From positions 62,001 through 126,000 of the forward strand of contig NZ_FOCV01000007.1 in assembly GCF_900110205.1 (NCBI RefSeq): DNA of 64,000 nt. Reading direction: 5' to 3'. The notes beneath the pieces are model-generated. The model was not told where the DNA came from, searched no databases, and worked only from the letters and a program-made list of their open reading frames with translations. Source of the stretch: Rhizobium tibeticum (lineage in GTDB: Bacteria > Pseudomonadota > Alphaproteobacteria > Rhizobiales > Rhizobiaceae). This document shows, piece after piece, positions 5,201 through 41,343 of the stretch. Made by a program: the position numbers and the translations under genes. The first letter of the stretch is position 1. Each line of letters opens with the position of its first letter.

Positions 5201-5959
5201 ATGACAACGGCCTCCCATCCGATAGACCCGGTCAGTCACGGCGACGCCAGGATTTGCCGGGGGTGCTGGGATCAAATGCACGTGCCCATTCCGATCCGGG
5301 GCGCGCTTGCGCTTCCGTTCCGCATATTTGGCGTCACCCGCAGCAAGATGAACCCGAATATTTGCACGATTTGCGAGCGGTCGTTTCGCTACGTCAAGAA
5401 GAAGCGCCAGATCACTGCCAGCGCCACCATCCTGTTTGCTGACATCAGAGGGTTCACAGCCCTTTCGGAACAGATTGAACCAGTCAGATTGAGCGACATT
5501 GTCAGCCTGTTCCAGGACCGGTGTGCGCAGGCGATCTGGGCTCACGACGGCATCGTCAACAAGCAAATGGGCGACGGTCTGATGGCGATCTTCAATTTTC
5601 CGATCATGCGGAAGGATCACGCTGCCGCAGCGGTTATGGCGGCAATGGACATACAGCGACGCTGCGCGGCCGCGCTCGACAGCCTTGACGCCGATCACAG
5701 GTTGGGTGTCGGTGTCGGTATTCACAGCGGCGAGGTCGAGATCGGTGAGTTTTCGAGCTTCCGCAGCGATTTTACCGCGATCGGTGGGGCCGTTAACTTG
5801 GCCGCGCGGCTGGAATCTCAGGCCCGCGCTGACGAGATCATCATATCGCCGGAGACCGCCGCTCAGGCTGCGCATCTTACCGCGGGGGCCGAGGCCCGCC
5901 TGCTCTTGCTCAAGGGGATACAGCAACCGGTGCAGGCGCGGGTGCTCATGAAGAGCTGA
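5201..5959 (+). CDS. Class III adenylate/guanylate cyclase with N-terminal CxxC pairs
   Basis: Protein of 252 residues. The cyclase homology domain fills residues about 72-250: metal-binding aspartates in FADIRGF (D81) and QMGDG (D125), the purine-selecting lysine K121, and TAIGGAVNLAARLES with Thr at the second purine-selecting position plus the transition-state Asn and Arg. Lys/Thr is the class IIIb pattern, usually ATP-specific. The N-terminus has CRGC (19-22) and CTIC (55-58), a possible metal or Fe-S site. No membrane segment is seen, so it is probably cytosolic. Confidence 0.9.
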   Translation: MTTASHPIDPVSHGDARICRGCWDQMHVPIPIRGALALPFRIFGVTRSKMNPNICTICERSFRYVKKKRQITASATILFADIRGFTALSEQIEPVRLSDIVSLFQDRCAQAIWAHDGIVNKQMGDGLMAIFNFPIMRKDHAAAAVMAAMDIQRRCAAALDSLDADHRLGVGVGIHSGEVEIGEFSSFRSDFTAIGGAVNLAARLESQARADEIIISPETAAQAAHLTAGAEARLLLLKGIQQPVQARVLMKS

Positions 5960-9151: not shown

Positions 9152-9450
9152 TTGATGACTAGGAAATGTAATCATCCAAGCGCATGCTACCTGAAGCACT
9201 GAAACATGGAATTTATCACATACGGTAATCCACATGTACTTTGGGAGCGGCCGCCTATTGCGCGGATTCCAGCTATGAGCCTTTTGGGGAATGTCGGGCT
9301 TGAACCGCATACTGCTGTTTGCCTGCGACCCTCTTTCGTATGATGCGTCCTTCTACCGCTGTCTACAAACCACGAGGTCGCCATTCGCAGACCTCGGTTC
9401 TCACGATTCAGTCATGCGAAGCGTGATCCGGCCGCTCCCATCCTTGTTCA
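9152..9450. other. Non-coding stretch before DUF3095 promoter
   Basis: No supported gene. One short inverted repeat (GAGGTC...GACCTC near 9373) is present. Confidence 0.45.
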
Positions 9451-9530
9451 TAAATCGCATCCGATTAAATCGCAAAGATATTGACGTTGCGATGCGGTTC
9501 GCGTATTTAAGCGCATCCGAGTTATTCGGG
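9451..9530 (+). promoter_or_regulatory. OhrR-type operators and promoter of the DUF3095 gene
   Basis: A perfect CGATTAAATCG palindrome (9462-9472) is followed 9 bp later by TTGACG (-35, 9481) and, after a 17-bp spacer, TATTTA (-10, 9504). A second, degenerate site (CCGAGTTATTCGG, 9517-9529) lies 3' of the -10. The order, spacing and flanking bases copy the ohr promoter at 11557-11635. Confidence 0.75.
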
Positions 9531-9561
9531 CGCGAATTAAATTGGCGGAAAGGACGTCGCT

Positions 9562-10671
9562 ATGTCCGGCGAGACCAGGTTCAGGCAGTCGATGCAATCG
9601 GCGATTACCGCCATGCAGGCCGGTGGACGCTCGATGCGTAGCGATCATCCAAACACGCCCCGGGCCTATAGCGAGTTTTCGCGAGTGCTCGATCCCACTA
9701 TCTATGAGGCGTTACCCGATGATTGGCTGGTCGGAATAACGGATGTCGTCGGCTCCACGTCGGCGATCAAGTCGGGGCGCTACGAAGACGTCAACTACGC
9801 TGGTGCGTCGGTGATCGCTGCGGTCGGAAACGCGTGGGGCGACTTCGATTTTCCCTTCGTATTCCGCGGCGACGGAGCCGCATTCGCGCTGCCGCCCCAG
9901 GGGATCATGACCGCGACTTCCGCGCTGCGGCAGGTGAGCGCCTTTGCGAAGGCCAATCTCGATCTTGCTCTTCGGGCCGGCTTGCTGACGGTGGGCGAAA
10001 TACGTGCCAATGGACGCGACGTGCGCATTGCCCGCTACGCCGCCTCTGAAAACGCGACCTATGCGATGTTTGCCGGCGGTGGCCTGAAATGGGCCGAGCG
10101 GCAAATCAAGAACGGGCGATACCTGGTGAAGCCAGGCAGCTACACGACCAAGCCCGATCTGACCGGCCTGAGCTGCGATTGGGAGCCGTTTCTCAGCCAG
10201 CGGGGCGAGATCCTCTCGCTGCTGGTGGAGCCATACGAAGACAGGAGCCCGGAAGCCTTCGCGTCGCTGGCAAAGTGCGTGCTTTCCGTTCTCGACGCCG
10301 GAACGCGGCAGGCCCAACCCTTGTCGCGGAATACCGCCATCGCCAAGGACAGCGCCAGGACAGTCGATCTCGAAGCCTGGCCGGCGGTCGCCTCCAACTC
10401 GGACTTCCGCAAATATGACGATGGCCTGCGTCTCACGCTGGATTGCACGCGCGAACAGATCGAAACTGTCGAAGCCATCCTGGTTGCGGCAAAGGCGCGC
10501 GGCGAGGTGAACTTCGGACTGCACCGCCAGTCCCACGCGCTCATGACCTGCTTTGTGCCATCGGGAAAGCCGGATTCGCATCTGCACTTTCTCGACGGCA
10601 TGGGTGGCGGATACGCCAAGGCGGCCGAGATGATGGAGGCAAATGACCTTCCCTTGGCCTCATTGCGGTAG
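9562..10671 (+). CDS. DUF3095 family protein (cyclase-like)
   Basis: Protein of 369 residues. The N-terminal half has the family features LPDDWLVGITDVVGSTSAIKSGRYEDVNYAGASVIAAVGNA and FPFVFRGDGAAFALP, which resemble the metal-binding core of nucleotide cyclases (DVVGST and GDGA correspond to the two aspartate motifs). Its biochemical activity is not established to my knowledge. An AAAGGA site precedes ATG 9562. The promoter carries the same operator as the ohr gene 2 kb downstream, so expression on organic peroxide exposure is likely (inference). Confidence 0.85.
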   Translation: MSGETRFRQSMQSAITAMQAGGRSMRSDHPNTPRAYSEFSRVLDPTIYEALPDDWLVGITDVVGSTSAIKSGRYEDVNYAGASVIAAVGNAWGDFDFPFVFRGDGAAFALPPQGIMTATSALRQVSAFAKANLDLALRAGLLTVGEIRANGRDVRIARYAASENATYAMFAGGGLKWAERQIKNGRYLVKPGSYTTKPDLTGLSCDWEPFLSQRGEILSLLVEPYEDRSPEAFASLAKCVLSVLDAGTRQAQPLSRNTAIAKDSARTVDLEAWPAVASNSDFRKYDDGLRLTLDCTREQIETVEAILVAAKARGEVNFGLHRQSHALMTCFVPSGKPDSHLHFLDGMGGGYAKAAEMMEANDLPLASLR

Positions 10672-11006
10672 AAGGGATGCCGTCGGAATCGCGCGGGCGT
10701 CGGCCAGTTCGGGTGGCGTTCGATCGGTCATGTTATTTTTTACAACGCCTCGAGCAATTCCGGTGCTCGGCTTTCGATCAGCGAAGGCCTTGTCCAAGGC
10801 TACACCGCGGGGGCTCGCAAACAGCGGCGCTACGGGTTGCCGCCACGCCGAAATCTTGTGTTCGACGGTCCGTCGCGGATTGCTGGAAGCACAAGCTAAA
10901 AGCACGGCACTTTCTTTCCACTTTGCGAACAACGAAACTTGGACGGCTGCATCCAAGGGCCGAGGCGGGCGCCGAACGCATCGACGCTCACTGGCAGCGA
11001 CAATAA
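10672..11006. other. Intergenic region between DUF3095 and ohrR genes
   Basis: 335 bp with no convincing gene. An open frame on the minus strand over most of it has no family resemblance and no good ribosome site. Confidence 0.5.
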
Positions 11007-11513
11007 TCAATCCTTCGCCGGTCCGTCCTTTATCACCTTCAGGAGGTTGTTGCGCAGCCGCACCACGGATTTCTGCACGACCGGAAAGTCCTCACCCAGG
11101 CCGGTGGCTTCGACCAGCGGTGCTCCGGGCTCGGCCTCCACAAGATTGCGTCCGGCGGGGGTGAGCCTCACGCGGACTTGCCGTTCATCAGCAGGATCGC
11201 GTTTGCGCTGGATATAACCCAAGGATTCAAGCTTCTTGAGTATCGGTGTCAGCGTATTTGATTCCAGGAAGAGCTTTTCGCCGAGAGCTCCCACAGTCTG
11301 GTCGTCCTTCTCTGACAGGGCAACCATCGCGATGTACTGGGTGTAGGTCAGGTTCAGCTTATCCAGGATCGGCTTATAGGCGCGTCCGAAGGCGAGGTTT
11401 GCCGAGTAGACTGCGAAGCACAGAAAGTTTGAAAGCGTGTTGCCCTTGCTGTCGGTCTCGCCGGAGGAAGGCGTCTCAACCACCAGGCTCTTTGCGGTTT
11501 TAGATGCGGACAT
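11007..11513 (-). CDS. ohrR: MarR-family organic hydroperoxide regulator OhrR
   Basis: Repressor of 168 residues that senses organic hydroperoxides by oxidation of a conserved N-terminal cysteine. That residue is C32 in LSNFLCFAVYSANLAFGRAYKPIL, and the winged helix follows (QTVGALGEKLFLESNTLTPILKKLESLGYIQRKRDPADERQVRVRLT). The N-terminus is about ten residues longer than in classical OhrR. The start at 11513 is chosen for homology; upstream codons fall in operator DNA. It is divergent from ohr and shares its operator region. Confidence 0.93.
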   Translation of the reverse strand: MSASKTAKSLVVETPSSGETDSKGNTLSNFLCFAVYSANLAFGRAYKPILDKLNLTYTQYIAMVALSEKDDQTVGALGEKLFLESNTLTPILKKLESLGYIQRKRDPADERQVRVRLTPAGRNLVEAEPGAPLVEATGLGEDFPVVQKSVVRLRNNLLKVIKDGPAKD

Positions 11514-11556
11514 GGGAGATCCTATTCGGTTTCTCTTCGTTCCCTCTTCTATAAAT

Positions 11557-11635
11557 CGTATCCGATTAAATCGCAATGGTATTGACAGCGCCGTTTTGTC
11601 GACCTACTTAGATCGCATCCGATTAAATCGGATAC
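11557..11635. promoter_or_regulatory. ohrR-ohr intergenic operators and ohr promoter
   Basis: Two perfect CGATTAAATCG palindromes, 11563-11573 and 11620-11630, flank TTGACA (-35, 11582) and TACTTA (-10, 11605; 17-bp spacer). The second site extends to TATCCGATTAAATCGGATA-like symmetry (GCATCC/GGATAC arms). This fits OhrR repression by binding on both sides of the promoter. Confidence 0.8.
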
Positions 11636-11664
11636 GAGCAAGCGCAACCTGAAAGGATTTTACC

Positions 11665-12060
11665 ATGACCGAGAAGCTCCTCTTTACCGGCAAGACTCAC
11701 AACAAGGGCGGTCGCGACGGTTTCACACGCAGCAGCGACGGCGAGTTGGACCTCCGGCTGGCGCAGCCGCACCCGGCCGCTGAGCGGCTTTTTGGCGCCG
11801 CATGGTCGGCCTGCTTCATTGGCGCCATCGAGGTCGCCGCAGCGCAAAGAAAGATCAAGCTCCCCGTCGATCCTGAGATCGATACCGAAATCGATCTGAA
11901 CGCCGACGGAGGTTCCTACTTCCTGCGCGCGCGCCTCAATGTAAGCCTGCCGGGTATCGAGCGTGACATCGCCGAAGAACTCATCCATGCAGCGCATGAG
12001 ATCTGCCCGTACTCCAAAGCAACGCGCGGCAATATCGACGTGTCGACCAACCTTATCTGA
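11665..12060 (+). CDS. ohr: Organic hydroperoxide reductase Ohr (copy 1)
   Basis: Thiol peroxidase of 131 residues that reduces organic hydroperoxides to alcohols, recycled by lipoyl proteins. Both catalytic cysteines are present: C50 (AAWSACFIGA) and C114 (AAHEICPYSKATRGNI), with the catalytic Arg in GGRDG and Glu in ERLF. The segment before ERLF is about six residues shorter than in the second copy at 39470 and lacks the usual TNPEQ. It is divergent from ohrR. Confidence 0.95.
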   Translation: MTEKLLFTGKTHNKGGRDGFTRSSDGELDLRLAQPHPAAERLFGAAWSACFIGAIEVAAAQRKIKLPVDPEIDTEIDLNADGGSYFLRARLNVSLPGIERDIAEELIHAAHEICPYSKATRGNIDVSTNLI

Positions 12061-12188
12061 AGGGATGGAAAACGCTCTCGGCGAGAACCAATGCAGAGGT
12101 ATCGCCGACACATCGTACAATGGATAAGCCCGGCCTTCGGTGAAAATGTGCCAGGCATCCGAATGAACCGACCACATAGGAGGACGAT

Positions 12189-13478
12189 ATGTCAGCTCTA
12201 TCATCATCGGTCACACGGCGTAGCTTGCTTGCATCTGCAGCAGTTGCCGGCGCCGTTAGTCTCCTGCCGGGGTCATTCGCCGCAGCGGGTGACGACAGCA
12301 ATGCAGTCCGCCCCTTCGAGTTTAAGGCTTCCGATGCGCAACTTGCCGATCTGCGTCAGCGCATCAACACGACCCGATGGCCGGAAGAGGAAACGGTGAA
12401 CGACAGTTCGCAAGGCGTACAGTATGCGACGACCCAGAAACTCGCTCGCTACTGGGCAAACGAATATGATTGGCGCAAGGTCGAAGCGCAGCTGAATGCC
12501 CTGCCGCAGTTCATCACCACGATCGATGGGGTGGACATCCACTTCATTCACGTTCGTTCCAAGCATAAGGATGCACTGCCGCTCATCGTCACGCACGGAT
12601 GGCCGGGCTCAATCATCGAGCAGTTGAAGATCATCGAACCGTTGACGAACCCGACGGCGCATGGCGGGAAGGCGTCGGATGCCTTCCACCTGGTCATCCC
12701 GTCGATACCCGGCTATGGCTTTTCAGGCAAGCCAACCACGACCGGCTGGGACCCGATCCGCATCGCGCATGCCTGGATCGCGTTGATGAAGCGGCTCGGC
12801 TATGAGAAGTACGTGGCGCAGGGCGGCGATTGGGGGGATGCGGTCACCGAGCAGATGGCTCTGATTGCCCCTCCCGAACTGCTCGGCATCCACGTCAACA
12901 TGCCGGCGACCGTTCCGGCTGATATCGCCGCAGCGCTGCAGCCCGGTGGTATGCCGCCGAAGGGCCTCTCTCCCGACGAACAGCATGCCTACGATCAGCT
13001 GGACGATTTTTACAAGCACGGGCTGGGCTATGCGCTCGAAATGGCGAACCGTCCGCAGACGCTCTATGGGATCGCGGACTCGCCAGTCGGCCTCGCGGCA
13101 TGGATGATCGACCACGATATCCGCAGCTACGAGATGATCGCACGCGTCTTCGATGGAAAGAGCGAAGGCCTGACGCGGGACGATATCCTCGACAACATCA
13201 CACTCTACTGGTTGACGAACACTGCCGTCTCGTCGGCGCGCCTCTATTGGGAGAACAAGCTGGCCTTCTTTGCCGTCAAGAATGTCACCATCCCGGTCGC
13301 CGTGAGCGTCTTTCCGGATGAGATCTATGCGGCTCCGCGTAGCTGGACGCAGCGCGCCTATCCCAAGCTGATCCACTACAACAAGCTCGACAAGGGCGGG
13401 CACTTTGCTGCCTGGGAGCAGCCGAAAGCCTTCACCTCCGAACTCCGAGCTGCGTTCCATTCGCTGCGGTCGGCGTAG
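12189..13478 (+). CDS. Tat-exported epoxide hydrolase (EHN family)
   Basis: Alpha/beta hydrolase of 429 residues with an N-terminal epoxide-hydrolase lid domain (FEFKASDAQLADLRQRINTTRWPE). Catalytic features are HGWPGS (oxyanion hole), nucleophile Asp in QGGDWGDAV and the C-terminal His in KGGHFAAWEQP. A twin-arginine signal (TRRSLLASAAVAGAVSLLPGSFAAA) predicts periplasmic export. It follows ohr by 128 bp on the same strand and precedes msrB, which suggests detoxification of peroxide-derived epoxides (inference). Confidence 0.92.
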   Translation: MSALSSSVTRRSLLASAAVAGAVSLLPGSFAAAGDDSNAVRPFEFKASDAQLADLRQRINTTRWPEEETVNDSSQGVQYATTQKLARYWANEYDWRKVEAQLNALPQFITTIDGVDIHFIHVRSKHKDALPLIVTHGWPGSIIEQLKIIEPLTNPTAHGGKASDAFHLVIPSIPGYGFSGKPTTTGWDPIRIAHAWIALMKRLGYEKYVAQGGDWGDAVTEQMALIAPPELLGIHVNMPATVPADIAAALQPGGMPPKGLSPDEQHAYDQLDDFYKHGLGYALEMANRPQTLYGIADSPVGLAAWMIDHDIRSYEMIARVFDGKSEGLTRDDILDNITLYWLTNTAVSSARLYWENKLAFFAVKNVTIPVAVSVFPDEIYAAPRSWTQRAYPKLIHYNKLDKGGHFAAWEQPKAFTSELRAAFHSLRSA

Positions 13479-13486
13479 ACACAAAT

Positions 13487-13514
13487 CGGGACGGCGCCAG
13501 AGGGCGCCATCCCG
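13487..13514 (+). terminator. Hairpin downstream of epoxide hydrolase
   Basis: CGGGACGGCGCC and GGCGCCATCCCG form a 12-bp stem (one G-T wobble) with a 4-base loop, 9 bp after the stop codon. There is no clear T-run, so it may be an attenuating or processing hairpin. Confidence 0.5.
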
Positions 13515-13579
13515 TTGGTGACAGTAACCTATCGGAAAAAGGTTTCCGGGCATCCGCCGGGACCCAAGGAGAACCAGGA

Positions 13580-14062
13580 ATGCGTGATGACCTCGAATTG
13601 CAGTTCGATCTCACTCCTCCCACTTCAGAACAGATGCAGCATTTTGTGGCCGACCTCAACGAAGAGGACCGCCATTTGCTGCTTGAGCATGGTGAGGAGG
13701 CGCCGTTCTGTGGCGTGTTCCTCCACGAGCGACGCGAGGGCCTTTATACCTGCCGCCTGTGCGGTCTTCCCCTGTTCAGGGCTGTTGCGAAATTTGAAAG
13801 CGGCACGGGCTGGCCGAGCTTCACGGCTCCGGTCGCGAAGGGTCATGTGCGGCATATTCGCGATACCCGCTACGGCATGGTCCGAACGGAGATCGTTTGC
13901 GCGCGTTGCGGTGCGCACCAGGGCCACGTCTTTCCGGACGGCCCGCCTCCGACCGGTGAGCGCTTCTGCATAAATTCAGGGTCGCTCGAGTTCACGCCAA
14001 AGGGGCAGCCACTTCCTGACAAGCTCGGCCGCGGTGGCCCAGAAGGCGAGTCGGCGAGGTAG
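13580..14062 (+). CDS. msrB: Peptide methionine-(R)-S-oxide reductase MsrB
   Basis: Protein of 160 residues that reduces methionine-R-sulfoxide in proteins. Both zinc CxxC pairs are present (CRLCG, CARCG), as are GTGWPSF, HVFPDGPPPTGERFCINS with the catalytic cysteine, and the following SGSLEF. No signal peptide, so cytosolic, unlike the exported MsrA at 36324. It belongs to the ohr/epoxide hydrolase stress block. Confidence 0.94.
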   Translation: MRDDLELQFDLTPPTSEQMQHFVADLNEEDRHLLLEHGEEAPFCGVFLHERREGLYTCRLCGLPLFRAVAKFESGTGWPSFTAPVAKGHVRHIRDTRYGMVRTEIVCARCGAHQGHVFPDGPPPTGERFCINSGSLEFTPKGQPLPDKLGRGGPEGESAR

Positions 14063-14104
14063 TTGACCGTCGCAGGGGCACATTGGTCGCCAATGGCCGA
14101 CCAT

Positions 14105-14130
14105 GGCGGTAGCGGTAAGGTGCTACCGCC
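14105..14130. terminator. Terminator-like hairpin between convergent msrB and lysR
   Basis: GGCGGTAGC (14105-14113) and GCTACCGCC (14122-14130) form a perfect 9-bp stem with an 8-base loop between two convergent genes. It can serve both strands. If the LysR frameshift is repaired, that gene's stop codon lies inside it. Confidence 0.6.
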
Positions 14131-14147
14131 CCCAGACCACAGCTTCC

Positions 14148-15059
14148 TCATGCCTCTTGATCAGGTGACGCAGGCTTTCGAATCCGGAGCGTATATGTTG
14201 CGCGAACTGATCGACCGCAGGCGATCGCGCCGAGTCCGCCCGCGTGAGAATTGCCAGCGCTCGCTCCGGATGCGGGATCGTCAGTGGATTTTTCCTTGCG
14301 CAATGCGAAAACCACGCTGTGCGGCATGACGGTCAGGGCGTCGGCCGCCTTGAGATAGTTGATCACGCTCATCAGCGAGCCACCGGAATAGCGGATTTTG
14401 ATCTCGGTTGCGCCAAAGGAGAGAAGCAGGGCGCGAAGATCGGCGAGCAGCGGACTGCCAGGCGGCGGGGCGACCCAGGGATAATCGAGAAGCTGGCTTG
14501 GCTGCGGGCGGCGCTTCAGCAGCAGCGGATGCGTGACGCGGCAGGCAATCACGTTGCGCCCCGGCAAGATCTGCTGGAATTCCAAGCCGGAGCCTTCATC
14601 GAGAATGTCGATCGGGCAGATGGCAAGGTCGATCTGGTCGGCCTTCAGCGCAGCCCGGAGATCAGGAAAGTAGCCATAGCTTTGATCGATCCGAACATCG
14701 GGATGTGTAACCTGAAACTCGGCACACAACCCTGCGATCAGCGCATCCATGAAGAAGGGCGTGCCTCCGACGCGCACGACGCCGCTTTTGCCGACGCGGA
14801 AGCTTTCCACCAGATCCGACGCTTTCCGGGACGCGGCCAGCATCACCAGCCCTTGCTCAGCCAGTGACAGGCCAAGCGACGTCGGCTGCAACGGTCTGCG
14901 ACCTTTGATGAACAATGGCTCGCCGAGACGCATTTCAAGCATCGACAACGTGCGCGAGACGGCCGGCTGCGCGAGTCCGAGGAGGGCCGCTCCCTCGGTC
15001 ACACCGCCGGTCTTGACCACAGCGGCGAGCTGTATCAGGTGACGTTCGTCAATCTTCAT
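14148..15059 (-). CDS. LysR-family regulator of the hydroxyquinol operon (C-terminus frameshifted)
   Basis: The N-terminal winged helix (LIQLAAVVKTGGVTEGAALLGLAQPAVSRTLSMLEMRLGEPLF) and substrate domain are normal to about residue 253 (ALTVMPHSVVFALRKEK). After a T5 run at 14289-14293 (plus strand) the frame ends in unrelated sequence at 14148. Removing one base restores NPLTIPHPERALAILTRAD and a natural end at 14123. The last 55 residues or so are therefore lost, or the sequence has an error. It is divergent from the dioxygenase gene and its start codon overlaps an ATAAC-N5-GTTAT operator. Confidence 0.85.
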   Translation of the reverse strand: MKIDERHLIQLAAVVKTGGVTEGAALLGLAQPAVSRTLSMLEMRLGEPLFIKGRRPLQPTSLGLSLAEQGLVMLAASRKASDLVESFRVGKSGVVRVGGTPFFMDALIAGLCAEFQVTHPDVRIDQSYGYFPDLRAALKADQIDLAICPIDILDEGSGLEFQQILPGRNVIACRVTHPLLLKRRPQPSQLLDYPWVAPPPGSPLLADLRALLLSFGATEIKIRYSGGSLMSVINYLKAADALTVMPHSVVFALRKEKSTDDPASGASAGNSHAGGLGAIACGRSVRATYTLRIRKPASPDQEA

Positions 15060-38037: not shown

Positions 38038-39090
38038 ATGGCAGAGGAAATCAATCAACAGAGGCGGCGGTTCATGGGCGTCGCGGCCCTGACTGTCGCT
38101 GCTGCGCAACTGGGCGTCATCGGGACGAATGTTGCGCAAGCGGCGACGCCAACTGCTGCGCGCATTCCCACCATCGCGCCAGGGACCAACACCTCGTTCG
38201 GCACAATCAAGCAGATCGATGCAGGTCTGCTCAACGTCGGTTATGCCGAACTTGGTGCGAGCGACGCGCCTCCGGTCATTCTCCTGCACGGCTGGCCCTA
38301 TGACATCCACACCTACGTCGACGTCGCACCGCTGCTTGCCGCGGCTGGCTACCGCGTCATCGTGCCCTATCTGCGTGGTTACGGCACGACGCGGTTCCTT
38401 TCCGACAAGACGATGTGCAACGGTCAGCAGGCCGCAATCGCCGCAGATATTATCGCGCTCATGGATGCACTGAAGATCGACAAGGCGCTGATTGGCGGTT
38501 GTGATTGGGGAGCCCGCACGGCCTGCATTATCGCCGCCCTCTGGCCCGAGCGCTGCAAGGCGCTGGTTTCCGTCAGCGGCTATCTCATCGGCAGCCAGGA
38601 AGCCAACAAGGCGCCATTGCCGCCGAAGGCCGAACTTGCCTGGTGGTATCAGTTCTACTTCGCCACCGAACGTGGCCGCGCAGGCTATGCGCAATACCGG
38701 AGCGAGTTTGCAAAACTCATCTGGCAGCTTGCATCACCGAAGTGGAATTTCGATGACGCGACCTTCAATCGCAGCGCGGCCGCCTTCGAAAATCCGGATC
38801 ACGTCGACATCACCATCCACAACTACCGCTGGCGCATCAGCGCCGCCGAGGGTGAGCGGAAGTATGACGAACTCGAAGCGCGGCTTGCCAAGTTCCCAGT
38901 CATCGGCGTGCCTGCCATCACGCTGGAAGGCGATGCCAATGGTGCGCCTCATCCGCAGCCGGAGGCCTACGCCAAGAAGTTCTCGGGCAAGTACGAACAT
39001 CGACTGATCACCGGCGGCATCGGTCACAATCTACCACAGGAGGCGCCGCAAGCCTTTGCGCAAGCCGTGGTCGACGTCGATCGATTCTGA
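38038..39090 (+). CDS. Tat-exported alpha/beta hydrolase (epoxide hydrolase-like)
   Basis: Protein of 350 residues with a twin-arginine signal (QQRRRFMGVAALTVAAAQLGVIGTNVAQAA). Alpha/beta-hydrolase features: VILLHGWPYDIHTY (oxyanion hole), nucleophile Asp in IGGCDWGARTA, and C-terminal His in GGIGHNLPQEAP. Asp as nucleophile fits epoxide hydrolases or dehalogenases rather than esterases. GGAG lies upstream of ATG 38038. It precedes the second ohr gene, mirroring the ohr/epoxide hydrolase pair at 11.7-13.5 kb. Confidence 0.9.
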   Translation: MAEEINQQRRRFMGVAALTVAAAQLGVIGTNVAQAATPTAARIPTIAPGTNTSFGTIKQIDAGLLNVGYAELGASDAPPVILLHGWPYDIHTYVDVAPLLAAAGYRVIVPYLRGYGTTRFLSDKTMCNGQQAAIAADIIALMDALKIDKALIGGCDWGARTACIIAALWPERCKALVSVSGYLIGSQEANKAPLPPKAELAWWYQFYFATERGRAGYAQYRSEFAKLIWQLASPKWNFDDATFNRSAAAFENPDHVDITIHNYRWRISAAEGERKYDELEARLAKFPVIGVPAITLEGDANGAPHPQPEAYAKKFSGKYEHRLITGGIGHNLPQEAPQAFAQAVVDVDRF

Positions 39091-39162
39091 TCGTTCATCG
39101 GGCGTGGTCGCGGCGGCCAGCCGCGGCTTTCCGGTTTCGCCTTCATTCCGGACTCTGGACCT

Positions 39163-39199
39163 GGCGTTAGAGCGTTTAGGCGCTCACGCCGGGTTTTTT
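39163..39199 (+). terminator. Rho-independent terminator after the Tat hydrolase
   Basis: GGCGT..GAGCG - loop TTTAGG - CGCTC ACGCC followed by GGG and six T. It closes the hydrolase transcript 73 bp after the stop, so ohr copy 2 must have its own promoter within 39200-39469. That remaining stretch shows TATTGTATCC at 39318 and no other gene. Confidence 0.8.
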
Positions 39200-39469
39200 A
39201 TCATGCACGCGTCATGAAGGTGAGGTCCTGCCCACGCAGCCCTTCGCACTTCCTCCGGCGCGGTCTGCGTCCCGCACCTTGGCTGAGCGGTCAGCCGCTG
39301 ACGGGCGGTTCGTATCGTATTGTATCCGCACCGCGTTTGCGTGGGAGTTGGCTACATTTCAGCACCGCGACGAAACATCTCAGACACGTACGGAGCGTCA
39401 TCTGCGGTTCGACAGCGAGCCAGGCAATCAGGCTTCGGCGGCATCCATTCTGTCGAAAGGAAGAACATC

Positions 39470-39886
39470 ATGAGCGAGAACCAGAAAGTAATCTACACCG
39501 GCAAGACGCACACGACCGGCGGTCGCGACAGCGCATCGCGCAGCTCCGACGGTCGCCTCGATACCAAACTGTCCTCGCCGGGCAGCGCGGGGCAGGGAAC
39601 GAACCCTGAGCAGCTCTTTGCCGCTGGCTGGTCGGCCTGCTTCATCGGCGCGATGGGCTTTGCCGCCAGCGGCCTGAAGGTCGCACTTCCGGCCGACCTC
39701 GCCGTCAACACCGAAGTGGACCTCTGCAGCAGCACGGGCGGCTACTCCCTTCAGGCACGCCTCAACGTCAGCCTGCCGGACATCGACCACGAAACTGCTC
39801 GGGCTATTGTCGATGCAGCGCATCAAATATGCCCATATTCCAAGGCAACGCGCGGCAATATCAACGTCACCATAAACCTCGTCTGA
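39470..39886 (+). CDS. Organic hydroperoxide reductase Ohr (copy 2)
   Basis: Ohr/OsmC family protein of 138 residues with both cysteines (GWSACFIGAM and AHQICPYSKATRGNI), the Arg of GGRDS and Glu of TNPEQLF. It is the classical full-length form, compared with the shorter copy at 11665. GAAAGGA precedes ATG 39470; upstream in-frame codons do not match the family. No OhrR-type palindrome is seen upstream, so its control differs from copy 1. Confidence 0.94.
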   Translation: MSENQKVIYTGKTHTTGGRDSASRSSDGRLDTKLSSPGSAGQGTNPEQLFAAGWSACFIGAMGFAASGLKVALPADLAVNTEVDLCSSTGGYSLQARLNVSLPDIDHETARAIVDAAHQICPYSKATRGNINVTINLV

Positions 39887-39932
39887 CGAGATAAGAAAAA
39901 CGGTTCCCCCGCCAGATGGGTGTGATGTTGAG

Positions 39933-39964
39933 GAGCGGCAGCTGTCAAAGGCTGCCGCTCTTTT
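39933..39964 (+). terminator. Rho-independent terminator of ohr copy 2
   Basis: GAGCGGCAGC and GCTGCCGCTC form a perfect 10-bp stem with an 8-base loop, followed by TTTT. It lies between convergent ohr and the histidine kinase gene. Confidence 0.85.
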
Positions 39965-40008
39965 GCCGATAGTCAGGCGAATGTTTCCAGTGGCAACCGC
40001 AAGGCGGC

Positions 40009-41343
40009 TCAAGCTGTTGTTCGATTGATGGCTATTTCGGCCACAAGCCCGCCGCCGTCCCGATTGCGCAGCGCCAGCGATGCACCGATCGCCGTAGCAA
40101 GCTGTACGGCAATGGCGAGGCCGAGCCCGGTTCCGCCGGTATCGCGATTGCGCGATTGCTCCAGGCGAAAGAAGGGCTTGAGGACAGCTTCCAGCTGGTC
40201 ATTGGGAATCCCGGGACCGCGATCAAGCACTCTGACGACTATGCTCTCGTCGGCGCGGCGTTGCACTTCGATCTCGGCGCTGCCGCCGAACTTCAGCGCG
40301 TTGTCGATGAGATTGGTGAGAACGCGCCTCAGGGCGTGCGGCCGTGTCATGATCGCACCGCCGCTCATCTCAATTATCGCAACGTCCTTGCCGGTATCCT
40401 GGTAGTCATAAACAAGGCTTTCGATGAACGAGGAGAGATCGATGCGCGAGGCTTTCTCGACATTGCCATGGGCGCTGCGAGCATAGGCGACACCTTCCTT
40501 GACAAGACGTTCGATCTCGCCGAGATCCTGCATCAGCTTATCCCTATCGCCGAAATCCTCCGCCATCTCCGCCCTGAGCTTCATGCGGGTGATCGGCGTT
40601 TGCAGATCGTGCGATATGGCTGCGAGTATTTGTACGCGCTCCTCAAGATATTGCGCGATGCGTTCGCGCATTGCGTTGAAGGCGGTTGCGGCATAAGCGA
40701 CTTCGCTCGGTCCCGTCTCGCTCAGGCGAGGGGTCTTCACGTTCGGGTCGAGCGTGTCGGCGGCTCGTGCGAGATTGACGAGAGGGCGGATTGCCTGACG
40801 CACGGCAAACCAACTGCACAGCACCAGCAACGCCAACTGCGCGGCGAGCACATAAGGCAGCCAATCGGCCAGCGGCATGACGCCATGCGGGTTGATGTCT
40901 ATCGTCAATGGCGCACCATCGCTCAGTGACAGATGTGCCTGGAGTCGAAGGTCGGCGCCGGGAATGGTCTCCATCTCGATCGGATACTTTGCACCGATCG
41001 CGGCGCGAACCTTGGAAGCGATTTCAGCGCTGCGCGCCTCGAGGGTCGGAGTGCCGGGCAAGCCGGGTCCCAGCACGAAACGATAACTCCCCCGATCAAG
41101 ACGATCGAGCCAATCGGCGCGTTCGTCGGCCGGTAGGCGATCGAGAATGGCGATCGAGGTCGCGACGTCGTTTTCGAGGGTGTTGAACATGACCGACTTG
41201 GCGGCCGTGTAGCGCTCGAAAAATAGCACCGTGAACGACATGGCATGCGCGATCGCCAGACCAGCAAGCAGAATAAGAAACAGCCGCGCCCCGAGGGTGC
41301 GCGGCCACAGAGGAAATCCATTCAGGAAGGCGTGCGTCGCCAT
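40009..41343 (-). CDS. Sensor histidine kinase
   Basis: Membrane kinase of 444 residues: first helix about residues 19-40, periplasmic loop of roughly 110 residues, second helix (VLAAQLALLVLCSWFAV), HAMP region, HisKA with ISHDLQTPITRMKLRAEM (phospho-His), then N-box NLIDNALKFGG, DRGPGIP and GGTGLGLAIAVQLA. ATG 41343 shares a base with the response-regulator stop (TGATG). EnvZ-like architecture. It is next to ohr copy 2, suggesting envelope redox or organic stress as signal (inference). Confidence 0.92.
   Translation of the reverse strand: MATHAFLNGFPLWPRTLGARLFLILLAGLAIAHAMSFTVLFFERYTAAKSVMFNTLENDVATSIAILDRLPADERADWLDRLDRGSYRFVLGPGLPGTPTLEARSAEIASKVRAAIGAKYPIEMETIPGADLRLQAHLSLSDGAPLTIDINPHGVMPLADWLPYVLAAQLALLVLCSWFAVRQAIRPLVNLARAADTLDPNVKTPRLSETGPSEVAYAATAFNAMRERIAQYLEERVQILAAISHDLQTPITRMKLRAEMAEDFGDRDKLMQDLGEIERLVKEGVAYARSAHGNVEKASRIDLSSFIESLVYDYQDTGKDVAIIEMSGGAIMTRPHALRRVLTNLIDNALKFGGSAEIEVQRRADESIVVRVLDRGPGIPNDQLEAVLKPFFRLEQSRNRDTGGTGLGLAIAVQLATAIGASLALRNRDGGGLVAEIAINRTTA

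Follow-up and report, generated by a model that had tools for sequence, protein, structure and literature searches.

We have studied a stretch of 64,000 nt from Rhizobium tibeticum (contig NZ_FOCV01000007.1, positions 62,001–126,000), which we will call the window. Its nearest matches among named proteins and contigs are from R. tibeticum, R. altiplani, R. mesoamericanum and R. grahamii. It contains the gene of the peroxiredoxin Ohr, the gene of a neighbouring predicted repressor, OhrR, and a gene of the uncharacterised family DUF3095. The promoters of ohr and DUF3095 have the same design, each with a pair of 17-bp sites. Very probably the OhrR of this locus, which has a single Cys, would keep both promoters shut until an organic peroxide oxidises that residue; ohr and DUF3095 would then be expressed together. 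The order of the genes is DUF3095 (+), ohrR (−), ohr (+), epoxide hydrolase (+) and msrB (+).

The layout common to the two promoters is as follows: a first 17-bp site, 5 nt, TTGACG or TTGACA, 17 nt, TATTTA or TACTTA, 5–6 nt and a second 17-bp site, which begins 47–48 nt upstream of the ATG. Before DUF3095 the first operator (9459–9475) is ATCCGATTAAATCGCAA. It is followed on the + strand by a predicted −35 box TTGACG (9481–9486) and, after the 17-nt spacer, a predicted −10 box TATTTA (9504–9509); then comes a degenerate second operator, ATCCGAGTTATTCGGGC, with 4 mismatches (9515–9531). The identical first 17-mer is found at 11560–11576, between ohrR and ohr, where it also lies 63 nt upstream of the ATG of ohrR. 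The predicted boxes of ohr, again on the + strand and with the same spacer, are TTGACA (11582–11587) and TACTTA (11605–11610). Its second operator (11617–11633) is the perfect palindrome ATCCGATTAAATCGGAT. No strand is assigned to the four operators. The first-pass annotation, made from the letters alone, had described such a shared design, with TTGAC(G/A), a 17-bp spacer, TA(T/C)TTA and a second operator after the −10 box, perfect at ohr and degenerate at DUF3095; direct reading of the sequence and a script agree with it on all these features. Two of its measures had to be corrected: CGATTAAATCG lies 8 nt from TTGAC at both promoters, not 9, and the conserved palindromic unit has 17 bp, not 11. 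The seven loci of the window type mostly keep site 1, the −35 box, the −10 box and the first half of site 2; TTGAC is invariant across the seven aligned promoters and the spacer is variable. The assignment of the two boxes rests on this conservation. A scan for terminators gave nothing useful.

The likeness of the two promoters is well above expectation. With up to one mismatch CGATTAAATCG has 7 matches in the window against 1.32 expected, and none of 100 shuffles reached this number; the 7 matches are three palindromes read on both strands and one other place. Allowing 2 mismatches, the 17-mer occurs at 5 places in the whole genome (7.06 Mb), 3 of them at this locus. Within 3 mismatches there are 11, against none for the reversed pattern. 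When the 116-bp regions upstream of ohr and DUF3095 are aligned, 75 of 118 positions are identical; the z value is 9.1 when 1000 dinucleotide shuffles serve as the reference, and 10.4 with random segments of the window.

The association is also apparent in related genomes. Our genus set has 148 genomes, 146 of them with a relative of DUF3095. From this genus we fetched 72 loci of the short subfamily, which we call B: 55 are close, with at least 65% identity to the window protein, and 17 are more distant. In 47 of the close loci DUF3095 is found downstream of ohr on the same strand, with 54–160 nt between the aligned ends; all 47 have two sites with up to 3 mismatches before ohr, 55–57 bp apart. 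In seven others (L113–L118 and L146, which is the window) DUF3095 lies apart from ohr, and in every one of them a site with up to 3 mismatches precedes DUF3095 itself; of the second sites, six have 3–5 mismatches and that of L118 has decayed further. The first-pass annotation held that absence of the palindrome before DUF3095 orthologues would speak against its proposal. Taken literally, the palindrome is indeed missing directly before DUF3095 in most species, because the gene sits there behind ohr, whose promoter bears the sites; one close locus (L087) and the 17 distant ones have no site at all. Of the 55 close loci, 54 have a recognisable ohrR (L144 ends before it); each of these ohrR genes is preceded by a site of its own, even when it is up to about 3.6 kb from the start of DUF3095.

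Named genomes gave 33 loci with at least 68% identity, 18 of them already in the genus set and 15 new, from Ensifer/Sinorhizobium, Microvirga and Phyllobacterium. All 33 have ohr, and 32 have a site within 2 mismatches; the site of L178 has 3. An annotated Phyllobacterium plasmid has the order MarR, Ohr, DUF3095, with 139 nt between the last two. R. johnstonii 3841 (L170) likewise has ohr before DUF3095. An OhrR of the window type (E value 1e-45 or better) is present in 56 of the 148 genomes: in all 55 with a close DUF3095 and in 1 of the 93 others (Fisher p 3e-40, a value which ignores kinship). This co-occurrence, the adjacency to ohr in the 47 loci with paired sites and the site before every separated copy, both in the window clade (7/7) and in Ensifer (3/3), support the earlier proposal that DUF3095 belongs to the ohr/ohrR circuit.

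Distant members of the family have a different environment. In 46 distant loci of named genomes (L192–L237, 39–42% identity) we found neither ohr nor a site within 2 mismatches, and the same is true of L187, which repeats L110. Loci of the other subfamily, A, near the genus (L009–L038, with flanks of up to 1.5 kb, and L131) have ohr or the site in 0 of 31 cases; pooled with the 46, the control loci give 0 of 77. A sister clade within B (L097–L102 and L104–L107, 57–62% identity) keeps ohr before DUF3095 with no such OhrR and no site; upstream of it, on the opposite strand, there are an epoxide hydrolase and another Ohr-like gene (40–43%). On pSymA of S. meliloti (L254, 4001–6820) there is a DUF3095 relative of 53% identity with no ohr and no site, followed by an epoxide hydrolase of 65%. 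In R. leguminosarum strain Norway (L130, genome G026) the copy of DUF3095 is split into two frames.

The separated state is found in two clades of the protein tree, which was built in quick mode from 89 of 109 rows, the other 20 being identical or short. One clade has the seven rows of the window type and the other has three Ensifer rows (L182–L184), each with an SH-aLRT value of 100. Both nest among rows with ohr before DUF3095, so that at least two changes to the separated state have to be counted. The separated Ensifer promoters have TTGACA, 16–17 nt and TATTTA, and their site 1 has 2 (L182), 3 (L183) and 3 (L184) mismatches. Their nearest kin (L179–L181 and L185) have ohr before DUF3095 plus a separate ohrR-ohr pair. 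Since these kin carry two ohr genes, the promoter of separated DUF3095 plausibly arose from a duplication of ohr with its promoter, followed by loss of the intervening ohr copy. As DUF3095 has an ohr-type promoter in both separated clades, they offer a natural experiment: one can see in them what selection holds together.

The repressor gene is found at 11007–11513 on the − strand. We have taken the ATG at 11513 as its start, although the listed reading frame begins at 11576 with TTG. Its product belongs to the MarR winged-helix family and its nearest solved relatives are OhrR proteins, 2pfb, 2pex and, in third place, 1z91, the three coming from Xanthomonas and B. subtilis. It scores below the NCBIfam cut-off of the Vibrio OhrR equivalog (114.7 of 200 bits). 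OhrR proteins have a reactive N-terminal Cys and two Tyr. Here C32, Y46 and Y57 are kept in all 65 distinct loci with a match, and the Cys is the only one in the matched part in 64 of them. The protein 1z91, the one-Cys OhrR of B. subtilis, resembles it in these three residues, its lone Cys and both Tyr occupying corresponding positions; its operator and its targets are other than those of the window.

Among the closest known systems is the divergent ohrR-ohr pair of S. meliloti (SMc00098/SMc00040, PMC3107159). According to that paper, reduced OhrR alone binds DNA, oxidation releases it, and ohr and ohrR are induced by organic peroxides. The window resembles it by having a MarR repressor beside ohr and two adjacent palindromic sites between both genes. 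They differ in that the S. meliloti protein has two Cys and the sites GCAAATTAATTTTG and GCAAATTGCTTTGC, while the window has one Cys, the site ATCCGATTAAATCGGAT and an additional gene, DUF3095, with the same kind of site. Another redox repressor of the MarR family in S. meliloti, SydR, also has two inverted repeats before a divergent target; its site (PMC11633110) is TATCGCGATA, its strongest response is to NaOCl and its target is another one. Because its site is not of the published type, we set the window protein apart from the canonical regulator and class it as a probable paralogue of OhrR whose site has changed. Elsewhere in the same genome, at about 35165–36100 of contig C91 (L071), there is another OhrR-Ohr pair; its OhrR has two Cys, and the DNA between the genes has sequences of GCAATT and GCAAATT type. 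This genome thus appears to have two OhrR circuits, each with an operator code of its own, and DUF3095 would belong to the one in the window.

The DUF3095 protein (9562–10671, + strand, 369 aa) matches PF11294 with 360.6 bits, against a gathering score of 22.2. Subfamily A (Bradyrhizobium, and second copies in Rhizobium) belongs to the same Pfam family, matches its model end to end and has invariant residues in common with B; it differs, besides its lack of ohr and of the site, by an extra stretch of 35–37 partly hydrophobic residues. In alignment A1 (36 of 120 listed proteins, 26 of the 46 distant loci and L187) this stretch is present in all 26 A rows and missing from all 37 B rows, except for 2 residues in one. 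It occupies columns 301–338 and may be a membrane or docking helix. The predicted model of the window protein consists of two fused class III cyclase folds and thus has the fold of a cyclase homology domain. Its best fold match is 6yii of P. aeruginosa, titled a class III adenylyl cyclase-like ATP-binding protein (8% identity); human soluble adenylyl cyclase (e.g. 4clt) has 11–13% identity with it. Two putative metal-binding residues, D61 and D104, are found in all 63 rows and were mapped by eye to the FADI and GDG motifs of another protein of the window. This is a class III cyclase (PF00211) at 5201–5959, 3.6 kb before DUF3095, which has a third motif, GGAVNLAARL, and is also found upstream in some relatives (L118, L159–L161). 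A search of PDB sequences with DUF3095 had no match at E values up to 1.

We can outline how the circuit would work. Reduced OhrR, sitting on sites upstream of the −35 box and just after the −10 box, would block both promoters and its own. An organic hydroperoxide would oxidise C32 and free the promoters, so that DUF3095 would be induced along with Ohr, the enzyme that would reduce the peroxide. Transcription of DUF3095 would start at the ohr promoter in most close relatives, and at an ohr-like promoter of its own in the window clade. The two cyclase-like halves of the protein likely hold a nucleoside triphosphate and metal between them. Its likely role in peroxide stress is that of a signal or sensor which depends on nucleotide; it would signal or tune recovery.

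Several observations weigh against this interpretation. The window site ATCCGATTAAATCGGAT shares only the central ATT/AAT with the published operator type GCAATT-AATTCG. The mechanism given in the first-pass annotation, release after oxidation of the N-terminal Cys, fits a one-Cys OhrR, but the site is unlike the known one, and for this reason binding of OhrR to it is something we infer. A strict sigma-70 consensus scan of 9300–14200 found no promoter. The second site of DUF3095 is degenerate, which may make control there weaker than at ohr. Upstream of DUF3095 in L087 there is unrelated sequence, without ohr as well as without a site, and genome G063 has the OhrR and no close DUF3095. All 17 distant B loci are devoid of this OhrR and of the site; ten still have ohr before DUF3095 and seven have no neighbouring ohr. 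The partnership with ohr is therefore not always established through this repressor. Several deep branches of the tree are weak. In DUF3095 the positions which an alignment by eye places at the catalytic Asn and Arg of cyclases (176/180 and 353/357) vary in both halves, which speaks against a working cyclase. A palindrome on another contig of the same genome, also described below, has no clear target gene.

Some of these points favour other explanations. Two AT-rich promoters might share a short palindrome by chance; the shortness of the palindrome core and the empty promoter scan agree with this idea, to which we give practically no credence: the shuffles, the genome counts and the upstream alignment rule it out, and conservation across species already refutes it. 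The sites could also belong to another regulator, with the neighbouring OhrR as a bystander. The difference from the operator given in PMC3107159 speaks for it, as does the second, two-Cys OhrR of the genome with its canonical-looking sites. We consider this very unlikely: a site precedes ohrR in 54 of 54 close loci where the gene was found, also at distances of up to about 3.6 kb from DUF3095; each of the 55 genomes with this DUF3095 has the OhrR too; and the 17 B loci which lack the OhrR lack the site as well.

A third possibility is that DUF3095 rides along, having come under the ohr promoter by history with no role in peroxide stress. Distant copies are common without ohr, as in the 77 control loci, so peroxide stress is probably not what the family basically serves, and ohr is also absent beside seven of the distant B loci. 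We find this explanation unlikely, since the separated copies retain an ohr-type promoter and a site in both clades and ohr is directly upstream of DUF3095 in 57 of the 72 B loci, including the sister clade which has no OhrR. More room is left for DUF3095 being an active nucleotide cyclase, which peroxide stress would induce and which would raise an alarm by making cAMP, cGMP or some other cyclic nucleotide. The tandem fold and the invariant D61 and D104 are consistent with it, as is position 284, which is K in 58 of the 63 rows and R in the other 5, and several database copies are named adenylate cyclase. On the other hand the positions aligned by eye to Asn and Arg vary, also by comparison with the human enzyme, which makes catalysis uncertain; the best fold match is titled as a cyclase-like ATP-binding protein; and a profile comparison with the class III cyclase of the window, based on 4 rows only, found nothing. 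The Pfam family Guanylate_cyc gave no match, DUF3095 being the only family reported at E values up to 1, and for this reason we call the protein cyclase-like and not a class III cyclase. We therefore regard such activity as possible and somewhat doubtful. The description as cyclase-like in the first-pass annotation is justified by the predicted fold and the two Asp, less so with regard to catalysis. OhrR control of ohr and DUF3095 is the reading we retain.

The other genes of the locus are as follows. Ohr has 131 aa (11665–12060, + strand), with 125 bits for TIGR03561 against a cut-off of 88.85 and Ohr relatives in the PDB. Its R17, E40, C50 and C114 correspond to the Arg, Glu and two Cys which are the catalytic residues of Ohr proteins; the last three are present in 83 of 83 matches and R17 in 80. 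A second Ohr in the window (39482–39883) is 57% identical and has 158.5 bits for TIGR03561; no site within 4 mismatches was found in the scanned region 38901–40516. The first ohr is followed on the + strand by an epoxide hydrolase (12189–13478, PF06441) and a methionine sulfoxide reductase B, msrB (13580–14062, PF01641). Within the fetched flanks a relative of the former is present in 36 of the 72 B loci (21/47, 4/7, 10/10, 1/7 and 0/1 by arrangement) and a relative of MsrB in 7: six of the seven separated loci (type II) and one of the 47 with ohr before DUF3095 (type I). Both enzymes would fit the repair of peroxide damage and are possible co-transcribed partners of ohr.

We also looked for a wider regulon, with the site outside this locus. 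In 14 genomes picked by hand from the 148, seven for each arrangement, there are 50 places within 2 mismatches of the 17-mer, 35 of them at this locus as counted by hand from the table. One place recurs in 6 of the 15 other matches. We dropped it, as it falls inside an open reading frame of 312 aa in the four cases inspected, by eye presumably fliM. A match on contig C128 of the R. tibeticum genome lies, by eye, inside a transporter-like frame. Another, on contig C149 (87407–87423; L132, L152), is the palindrome ATTCGATTAAATCGAAT; it differs from the operator by 2 mismatches and is crossed by no long open reading frame.

The OhrR-ohr switch is a well-studied case of redox regulation, in most accounts of which ohr figures as the principal target. 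The first-pass annotation knew of no link between it and a cyclase-like protein, and we found none among the titles and abstract beginnings listed. The word DUF3095 is in no paper we found, in a search which covers subscription papers and preprints thinly. In the accessible part of PMC3420878 the words sought appear only for a two-hybrid tool. The second Ohr of S. meliloti, SMa2389, is in one paper, without a link to cyclases. A bolder proposal, which we put forward tentatively and would not yet favour, is a switch from peroxide to nucleotide signalling, run by a one-Cys paralogue of OhrR which has an operator code to itself: organic hydroperoxides would free the promoters of OhrR, and the induced DUF3095 would make a nucleotide signal from ATP or GTP in company with detoxification by Ohr. 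If true, the response to organic peroxides would be tied to nucleotide signalling and DUF3095 would have a first known role; we have found neither in print. In Rhizobium, Ensifer/Sinorhizobium, Phyllobacterium and Microvirga, DUF3095 is a second and lasting partner of an OhrR paralogue with a different site. For the uncharacterised DUF3095 family this points to a partner, to a likely inducer and to a way of assaying it, and it makes directly testable whether organic-peroxide stress is linked with nucleotide signalling.

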